A stretch of DNA of 64,000 nt from Hyphomicrobiales bacterium (GTDB lineage: Bacteria; Pseudomonadota; Alphaproteobacteria; Rhizobiales; Rhizobiaceae): NCBI GenBank assembly GCA_900469475.1, contig UBXG01000016.1, positions 71,407 to 135,406 on the forward strand, in the 5' to 3' direction. Both the position numbers and the translations under genes were made by a program. Positions 26,137 to 36,429 of the stretch are shown in pieces. The notes under the pieces are model-generated. The model was not told the origin of the DNA, did no database searches, and saw only the letters and a list, made by a program, of their open reading frames with translations. Every line of letters starts with the position of its first letter. The stretch's first letter is position 1.

Positions 26137-26338
26137 GGGCATCCTCCTTTTTCGGGAATCGAATTTGGGCGATCTTCGATGTAGCGCGCTACATAGATCG
26201 CACATAGGGGCCGCTCTCCATTTTTGCGAGAGGAGAATGCGCACTCTTTAACGCGGAAGCGCTCTTGCCGCCTGGGTTAGGGCGCGGACTCTTCGATCGC
26301 GTTAGGCCATTGGCAAATGCCTGGAGGTTCATGAAACG

Positions 26339-26376
26339 AAAAAGCCTGCCGCGGGAGGAGGAGCGGCAGGCTTTTT
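26339..26376 (-). terminator. Terminator hairpin closing the small RNA
   Basis: AAAAAGCCTGCCGC and GCGGCAGGCTTTTT pair perfectly around TCCTCCTCCC on the minus strand. Because the flanks are A5 and T5, it could also act on plus-strand transcripts. Confidence 0.9.
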
Positions 26377-26495
26377 ACAAGAACCGAACAGCGGATGGGA
26401 GGAGGAGTTCCGCTATTCCTGCAGCCGTCCCTGGGAGGAGGATAAGGACGTCTGCCAAGCGAAGGGATGCGGGAGGAGATGCATCGCTTCGATGA
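26339..26495 (-). ncRNA. Cuckoo/alpha-r14/CcsR-type small RNA with four CCUCCUCCC hairpins
   Basis: Read on the minus strand, four consecutive stem-loops each present a C/U-rich anti-Shine-Dalgarno loop. Stem positions are 26457-26489 (loop CTCCTCCC), 26426-26450 (TCCTCCTCCC), 26390-26414 (CTCCTCCTCCC) and 26339-26376 (TCCTCCTCCC). The last has a perfect 14-bp stem ending in TTTTT, so it is also the intrinsic terminator. Stem sequences differ while loops are kept, which is the pattern of selection on the loop. This is the arrangement of the cuckoo/alpha-r14 RNAs of Rhizobiales and the CcsR1-4 RNAs of Rhodobacter, which follow a DUF1127 gene; a DUF1127 gene lies directly upstream here. The 5' end and any processing sites are estimates. 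Confidence 0.85.
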
Positions 26496-26636
26496 ATACG
26501 AACATACCAGTCTTTTGCTCAGTTCATAGGCATTTCTTTGCAAGGCAGTTATGCGCCATGCGAAAATCGGGCAGCTGGGTCGATCGTAATCTTCAGCCAG
26601 GGCGGCGAAGAATGAGCGGCATGCCCATAAAGCAAA

Positions 26637-26662
26637 AGCGCCTGCTCGGGGGAACAGGCGCT
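26637..26662 (-). terminator. Partial terminator or processing hairpin after the DUF1127 gene
   Basis: AGCGCCTG pairs with CAGGCGCT around a 10-base loop containing CCCCC, followed on the minus strand by TTTTGCTTT, 38 bases past the DUF1127 stop. Read-through here would place the downstream small RNA hairpins on the same transcript. Confidence 0.65.
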
Positions 26663-26699
26663 GGTATAATGCAGTTTTTATAAGGAGCCGTCGCGGCCG

Positions 26700-26846
26700 T
26701 TAGCGAGCGATCGCTGCGCGGGCAACATTGCGGATCTCACCGCGATCGATACCCAGGTCGTGCAGTTCGCGCGTGGACATACGGCCCAGTTCGGCGACCG
26801 TCTGACGATACTTGCGCCAGTTGTTGAAAGAGCGTGCTACGTTCAT
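26700..26846 (-). CDS. DUF1127 small basic protein (CcaF1-like)
   Basis: A 48-residue Arg-rich protein, MNVARSFNNWRKYRQTVAEL at the start and STRELHDLGIDRGEIRNVAR near the end: the full-length DUF1127 signature (RxTxxELxxLsdreLxDIGixRxdI). The ATG has AGGGGAT six bases upstream. In Rhodobacter the DUF1127 protein CcaF1 is encoded with the CcsR small RNAs and binds RNA. In Agrobacterium small DUF1127 proteins affect phosphate and carbon metabolism. Here, too, a CCUCCUCCC small RNA follows. An AT-rich stretch with TATATAG at about 26920-26926 (minus strand) may be its -10 region. Confidence 0.9.
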   Translation of the reverse strand: MNVARSFNNWRKYRQTVAELGRMSTRELHDLGIDRGEIRNVARAAIAR

Positions 26847-27083
26847 GATGATCCCCTTTCCTTGGGCTTTGGAAGCTGAGCAGCCGTGCTTGGCGCTCCC
26901 GTCGCTTCGATAAGAACTATATAGTCGAACCCATTGGCTTTTTGCAGAGCTAAGGAATCACTGCACCTATGCGTCTACTGCATGCGTCGCCCGAAATGCA
27001 GGCGATCTTCATTCGTCGGTCACACCTGCCTTTGCGATTCGCTGATGACAGCGCCGCCTTTGTCTGCAAAAAGAAGAGAGATG

Positions 27084-27168
27084 AGAGACAGGGGCGTCCG
27101 CTTATCCGGCGGGCTGAGAAGCACCCTTCGAACCTGAACCAGATCATGCTGGCGGAGGAAGTCGCTCG
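27084..27168 (+). ncRNA. TPP riboswitch (THI element)
   Basis: The conserved core is present in order: ACAGGGG, then GGGCTGAGAA with CACCCTTCGAACCTGAACC, CAGATCATGCTGGCG and GGAGGAA. This is the TPP aptamer with the CUGAGA and ACCCUU/GAACCUGA blocks. It lies about 60 bases upstream of thiM. Binding of thiamine pyrophosphate should switch off the thiMED operon. No intrinsic terminator is obvious between aptamer and start, so control is probably at ribosome access (AAAGGGGCG site). Confidence 0.95.
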
Positions 27169-27227
27169 GGACCTCGCGAAGCTGAAGCACGTCGTCCCTG
27201 CGCGTCTCGCCGCCTGAAAGGGGCGAT

Positions 27228-34580: not shown

Positions 34581-36429
<1,849 letters not shown>

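Follow-up and report, generated by a model that had tools for sequence, protein, structure and literature searches.

The array of anti-Shine-Dalgarno hairpins described here is a further member of the known ar14/cuckoo family of small RNAs, and we think it likely that its locus gives rise to two transcripts: a DUF1127 mRNA and an independent, trans-acting sRNA of ~155 nt whose four loops would block ribosome sites. Both lie on the minus strand of the stretch of DNA that we analysed (the window, 64 kb). Three observations are added here to what is known of this family, namely the conservation of the four loops, the separation of the RNA from DUF1127 by a terminator and a promoter-like block, and the existence of long arrays behind DUF1127 genes elsewhere. 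In the scheme that we favor, a short mRNA would encode the 48-aa DUF1127 protein and end at its own terminator, and the ~155-nt sRNA with its four hairpins would start from its own promoter behind that terminator, near position 26493. A LysR activator of the LsrB kind would drive DUF1127 and perhaps also the sRNA, each loop would pair with purine-rich Shine-Dalgarno sites and so block translation, and transporter mRNAs would be the favored targets.

The array consists of four successive hairpins on the minus strand (26491-26339). All four loops contain CUCCUCCC, and the fourth hairpin is a terminator with a U-tract. The motif CTCCTCCC starts at 26478, 26440, 26404 and 26360 on this strand, and there are only two further copies of it in the whole window, at 35484 (minus strand) and 12899 (plus strand). 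The 157 nt from 26493 to 26337, which we annotate as the sRNA with a putative 5' end at about 26493, fold into four hairpins with every motif unpaired, at −65.5 kcal/mol; shuffled sequences reach −42.3 ± 3.9 kcal/mol (z = −6.0), and none of 200 was as good. Folded singly, the hairpins have z-scores of −4.1 (H1, 26460-26491, motif 26478-26471), −2.4 (H2, 26421-26455, motif 26440-26433), −3.4 (H3, 26386-26418, motif 26404-26397) and −6.7 (H4 with the terminator, 26339-26376, motif 26360-26353). H2 alone is the least convincing fold, equalled by 5 of its 200 shuffles. A first-pass annotation of this DNA had described four minus-strand stem-loops with unlike stems under a common loop motif, the last of them doubling as a terminator, and the motif positions and the predicted fold agree with that description. 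Its account of the loop motifs holds as far as CUCCUCCC is present in all four, but the loop of H1, AUCUCCUCCC, contains this motif without the complete nine-letter CCUCCUCCC.

The same annotation had placed the RNA in the ar14/cuckoo group, and this is confirmed by a covariance-model match to the Rfam family ar14 (RF02344) at 26337-26460 on the minus strand (99.7 bits against a cut-off of 58.8, model positions 1-123 of 123). The match covers H2-H4, which show the ar14 arrangement of three hairpins with an unpaired anti-Shine-Dalgarno motif and a terminal terminator; H1 is extra, in front of them and beyond the model. Over H1-H2 the CcsR1 model (RF02791) scores 35.3 bits, under its cut-off of 65.3, and no AbcR-type family is among the Rfam matches at the array locus. 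The 6.35-Mb genome has four ar14 loci over the cut-off and one weak partial locus, and a search of it for triple-motif arrays gave four loci that are identical to the four over the cut-off (the backward pattern gave 0). Only the window locus has four motifs, the other three having three loops each. The array thus has both marks of the four-hairpin cuckoo form: adjacent hairpins with a common loop, and multiple copies in the genome.

Two of the other copies have neighbors that can be described. The weak one (45 bits; L005:1501-1606, on contig C27 of the same genome) has two hairpins that by eye resemble H3-H4 of the window and lies downstream of a gene resembling those for TetR regulators; it is perhaps a decayed partial copy. 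At C11:164929-166021, a three-hairpin ar14 copy is followed on the same strand by two DUF1127 genes, so that there the sRNA precedes DUF1127, and the first of these two DUF1127 proteins appears by eye to be nearly identical to the one in the window.

A whole-locus search matched 100 of 100 genomes of the genus (including the window's own), many of the matches being partial, and we analysed the best 30 loci, that is, the window's own and 29 relatives. Four loops are kept in 28 of these 29 relatives, and L040 has three. A plasmid of Rhizobium tropici CIAT 899 has a copy that is 96% identical, with its four loops and DUF1127 retained. A separate ar14 search was positive in 60 of 60 genus genomes (again including the window's own), but because its best loci favor three-hairpin copies it is no basis for hairpin counts. 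In an alignment of 29 four-loop sequences (including the window's; 27 distinct), standard pairs make up 95.2% of pair cells. The covariation score is 0.140, compared to 0.088 in shuffles, of which none in 500 was as high, and to 0.025-0.071 when the structure is slid along the alignment. Pairs changed on both sides are in weak excess (7, compared to 4.8 in shuffles; 22 of 500 shuffles were as high), and one of the five covariation measures, that of further pair types, shows no excess (22, compared to 21.7; equalled or exceeded by 291 of 500). Most of the support is due to H3, where 6 of 10 pairs have changed on both sides. H1 and H4 are nearly invariant (9 of 10 and 11 of 14 pairs, respectively), so neither contributes covariation support, and H2 has the weakest pairing, with 88.4% of cells paired. 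Among the 27 sequences, one pair of H2 is broken in 19 and another in 13; in H3 one pair is broken in 8, and H4 has lost its outermost pair in 17.

DUF1127 and the sRNA form a unit that stays together as the neighboring genes change, because the two neighbors seen in the window, a GST-like gene (identified by Pfam) and a thiM-like gene (identified by eye), are both missing in 14 of the 29 relatives within the fetched flanks of ~1.5 kb, and DUF1127 and the sRNA are still together there. On the far side of DUF1127, a TPP riboswitch (RF00059, 60 bits) is located at 27080-27177 on the plus strand, ahead of genes that by eye are thiM-, thiE- and thiD-like.

The DUF1127 gene itself (26700-26846, minus strand) encodes a protein of 48 aa, and its assignment in the first-pass annotation was correct (PF06568, E = 3.5e-17, 62.3 bits against a cut-off of 23.3). 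The pairing of DUF1127 with a cuckoo RNA in alphaproteobacteria is described in the literature as the CIN1 locus, and as in CIN1 the short DUF1127 gene adjoins the RNA on the same strand. The array had been said to follow DUF1127 directly. It is indeed downstream of the gene and on its strand, but the distance from the DUF1127 stop codon to the first loop motif is 222 nt, and a terminator hairpin lies in between (26637-26662, minus strand, followed by TTTGCTTT; −19.9 kcal/mol, z = −5.65). The stem of this terminator is present in the window and in 29 of 29 relatives. Its loop (26654-26648, minus strand) is TTCCCCC in the window and TCCTCCC in 15 of the 30 sequences, the window's included. We considered whether the terminator might be a fifth, decayed anti-Shine-Dalgarno hairpin, in view of those 15 TCCTCCC loops, one of which (in L045) has the full CTCCTCCC, but the idea was not upheld: the window has TTCCCCC, and the relatives from other genera (L087, L089 and L090) have unrelated loops.

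The promoter of DUF1127 can be assigned by comparison with NfeR1 of S. meliloti, which is reported to have a TGCA-N6-GCAT box bound by LsrB at −72 to −60 and a core of the form CTTAGAC-N17-CTATAT. Upstream of DUF1127 in the window there is a TGCA-N6-GCAT box (26969-26982, minus strand) that agrees with the NfeR1 box in form and distance, lying at about −71 to −58 counted from the expected start, and a core promoter (26919-26947, minus strand) made up of CTGCAA (26947-26942), 17 nt and CTATAT (26924-26919). The whole layout–TGCR-N6-GCAT, 21 nt, CTGCAA or ATGCAA, 17 nt, YTATAT–is found in the window and in 29 of 29 relatives. The regulators VtlR and LsrB are related to each other. In Brucella melitensis, VtlR is reported to activate three DUF1127 genes and the AbcR2 sRNA. 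DUF1127, and perhaps the sRNA too, would thus be activated by an LsrB-like regulator of the LysR type.

Between the DUF1127 terminator and H1 there is a second, promoter-like block (26494-26566, minus strand), in which 38 of 73 columns are invariant and the mean majority is 0.86. In the spacer that precedes it only 4 of 66 columns are invariant and the mean majority is 0.55 (30 sequences, including the window's), so the spacer is as variable as the flanks. The block contains an LTTR-like box, TTCG-N6-GCAT (26551-26564, minus strand; it fits T-N11-A), which begins 86 nt 5' of the first loop motif and would belong to the putative sRNA promoter. In two of the three-hairpin paralogs (L001 and L004), TGCG-N6-GCAT begins 87 nt 5' of the first loop motif; the third (L002) has no such box at the corresponding place. 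Because the distance of 86-87 nt from box to first loop is common to the window and these two paralogs, H1 is expected to be the 5' end of the sRNA. The candidate promoter has a poor −35 element (CTATGA), its box lacks the TGCA half-site, and T-N11-A by itself is a weak motif. Sigma-54, RpoH-type and ordinary sigma-70 readings of 26494-26566 were also tried by eye, and none of them fits. Given the terminator after DUF1127, the conserved block and the shared box distance, a separate transcription start near 26493 is the best reading of the sequence, albeit with a poor core promoter. The predicted first ten bases of the DUF1127 mRNA (26911-26902) and of the sRNA (26493-26484), both on the minus strand, are identical (ATCGAAGCGA), and in the sRNA these bases make up most of the 5' arm of H1.

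Three other readings of the locus have to be weighed against that of an independent four-loop sRNA. It is very improbable that function resides in the plus strand, or that the hairpins are mere DNA-level or coding features. An ORF of 76 aa on the plus strand does span the array region, but the alignment of 27 distinct sequences, of which the window's is one, has 56 pair cells that are G-U in the minus-strand reading, compared to 11 that would be G-U only on the plus strand, and both the U-tract behind the array and the Rfam match are on the minus strand, which the first-pass annotation had also chosen. We also regard it as unlikely that the array is processed into pieces of one or two hairpins, each acting as an sRNA of its own. 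The related SmelA075 is reported to have several processed forms, and the relative in Rhodobacter to have two stem-loops; against this, the spacers between the hairpins in the predicted fold are only 4, 2 and 7-9 nt long, which leaves little room for cutting, and among the hairpins only H4 ends in a U-tract. That the four loops belong to one molecule, as had been proposed, is supported by inference, although the contrast then drawn, of a single molecule instead of separate RNAs, is nothing new. By analogy, redundancy is the most likely relation among the four loops of this one molecule.

The remaining alternative is an RNA of the CcsR type, co-transcribed with DUF1127 as part of its 3' UTR and released by RNase E with the aid of the DUF1127 protein. 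CcsR1-4 are reported to be made in this way from ccaF1. To see how DUF1127 genes and arrays are arranged in general, we compiled a table of 68 distinct DUF1127-array pairs lying within 700 nt of each other, from 177 loci with repeated arrays dropped. The DUF1127 genes were detected by a strand-aware scan with a profile made from nine DUF1127 segments of the window's own genome, and the table leaves aside the 29 genus relatives, except for one that re-entered as L085. In 62 of the 68 pairs, as this alternative would have it, the first loop is 18-130 nt behind the DUF1127 stop codon and no terminator was detected, with 2-17 hairpins per array. The window locus, however, is among the other six (the window, one genus relative and four loci from other genera of the family), in which 163-222 nt separate the stop codon from the first loop; five of the six have a detected terminator, and all six have four hairpins. 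Similarly, in 21 distinct loci of the genus the gap is 190-224 nt and the terminator test was passed by 20. Together with the separate promoter-like block behind the DUF1127 terminator, these counts make origin from the 3' UTR a doubtful explanation for the window locus, and we prefer two separate transcripts. The earlier suggestion that the RNA is the counterpart of CcsR consequently stands for the pairing with DUF1127 and for the loop motif, but is not supported as regards transcription, since a terminator and a promoter-like block intervene and the CcsR1 model stays below its cut-off. Among 30 loci from the family search, four with four hairpins (L086, L091, L092 and L093) have no DUF1127 gene in their fetched flanks.

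Much longer arrays exist outside the genus. A pattern designed to find arrays of five or more hairpins matched 14 of 20 genomes in one related family. Nine folding hairpins are present in 12 of these 14, beginning 31-34 nt downstream of DUF1127, and eight in the remaining two, where they begin at 45 and 130 nt. The folds of one nine-hairpin and one eight-hairpin array have z-scores of −11.7 and −6.4, respectively. The longest arrays have 17 hairpins in Wenxinia marina DSM 24838 (L249:393-1154) and 14 in Tropicimonas sp. IMCC34011 (L256:7484-7972), the latter with a repeated three-hairpin unit. These two and the nine-hairpin arrays of L134 and L145-L156 begin 27-34 nt behind DUF1127; L235 also has a nine-hairpin array, truncated by the end of its slice. 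An Rfam search of seven long-array loci gave ar14 over the cut-off in four, in one stretch each, and no family over the cut-off in the other three. A contig scan found at least 118 stretches. Among the matches listed, 37 have at least five folding loops, and in 34 of these 37 a DUF1127 gene lies upstream at a distance of no more than 700 nt. The exceptions are L222 (Streptomyces), L268 (a 3.2-kb contig) and L274 (Mesorhizobium), and many of the remaining stretches among the matches listed look like chance matches in unrelated bacteria. Among the papers available to us, a search on anti-Shine-Dalgarno hairpin sRNAs in Rhodobacteraceae found none. With two loops each, CcsR1-4 of R. sphaeroides would already add up to eight at a single locus, and the long arrays are thus an extension of a known arrangement. 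We tentatively propose, at slightly less than even confidence, that DUF1127 and tandem anti-Shine-Dalgarno hairpins may form one modular alphaproteobacterial system in which hairpin number determines the dose: in the common wiring 2-17 hairpins would be part of the DUF1127 transcript, in the wiring of Rhizobiaceae four hairpins would stand behind a terminator under their own LysR-type promoter, and arrays of 5-17 hairpins would be high-capacity decoys for ribosome sites.

Candidate targets were sought by the Shine-Dalgarno sequence GGGAGGAG at 2-10 nt before an ATG. The genome has 62 matches at 59 places (three places being counted twice, and one being the complement of an ar14 loop), compared to 8 for the backward pattern. 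We fetched 30 of these loci, which gave 18 distinct ORFs of at least 100 aa. According to Pfam, eight of these encode transport proteins (five solute-binding proteins, two ABC ATPases and one sugar/MFS transporter), and four of the 18 have no Pfam family match. In a control with AAGGAGGT, a Shine-Dalgarno sequence that the loops match less well, 0 of 10 ORFs were transport proteins (one-sided P = 0.014); this control is small, its backward count is high (7, compared to 20), and its ORFs are perhaps not all real genes. Pairing energies with the four loops were calculated for five starts in the window, and the best was that of a sugar-binding-protein gene at 35488 (−17.9 to −21.0 kcal/mol), followed by the GST-like gene (−12.0 to −14.2), the thiM-like gene (−8.1 to −13.0), DUF1127 (−9.2 to −10.4) and the thiE-like gene (−4.9 to −10.8). 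The gene at 35488 (L300) encodes a sugar-type periplasmic binding protein, and its Shine-Dalgarno sequence GGGAGGAG, within 35477-35490 on the plus strand, pairs with all four loops. NfeR1, an ar14 RNA, is reported to silence ntrB through three functionally redundant loops, to be among the Hfq-independent sRNAs, and to have predicted targets that are mostly ABC transport systems. By analogy, the sRNA of this soil bacterium probably turns down nutrient-uptake genes.

An apparently new sRNA is thus placed as a regular member of a family whose function has been tested in a legume symbiont. It is predicted to differ from its Rhodobacter relatives in a way that can be tested, having an independent promoter where those are cut out of the DUF1127 transcript. 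The long arrays, with as many as 17 hairpins, are only partly described by the Rfam models and by the range of 2-4 hairpins in the published text available to us, and they pose the question of why one RNA should carry many identical loops directed against ribosome sites.

Among known systems, AbcR1/AbcR2 (alpha-r15) resemble the window RNA in having unpaired anti-Shine-Dalgarno motifs and ABC-transporter targets, but are described as Hfq-binding, with two CU-rich motifs in three stem-loops. At the ccaF1 locus of Rhodobacter sphaeroides, a DUF1127 gene likewise has hairpin RNAs behind it, CcsR1-4, which share the loop motif; these are reported to be cut from the ccaF1 3' UTR with the involvement of RNase E, whereas in the window a terminator and a promoter-like block lie in between. 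The alpha-r14 RNAs (RF02344), which include NfeR1, are described as single molecules with three anti-Shine-Dalgarno loops, and the loops of NfeR1 as silencing ribosome sites. H2-H4 of the window match the full alpha-r14 model, and the window RNA has one hairpin more, at its 5' end. The box-and-promoter layout reported for NfeR1 is resembled in the window by the DUF1127 promoter; the putative sRNA promoter has TTCG-N6-GCAT in that place and a poor core. The closest likeness is to the RFMSmelA099/cuckoo family (Reinkensmeier et al. 2011; Reinkensmeier and Giegerich 2015), described as multicopy RNAs with four successive CCUCCUCCC-loop hairpins and variable stems. Reinkensmeier et al. (2011) give three- and four-hairpin models with CCUCCUCCC in every loop and propose them as one family with a varying number of modules, and a later paper gives 2-4 hairpins per RNA. 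A four-hairpin locus on pSymA of S. meliloti, which lies beside dinB and is perhaps SmelA099, has no DUF1127 gene within 2.5 kb, whereas the window locus adjoins one. Given the published three- and four-hairpin family, the CIN1 link and the origin of CcsR1-4, the array RNA is of a known kind and four loops per molecule are not new: in the RNA itself, there is no essential difference between cuckoo RFMSmelA099 and the window locus.
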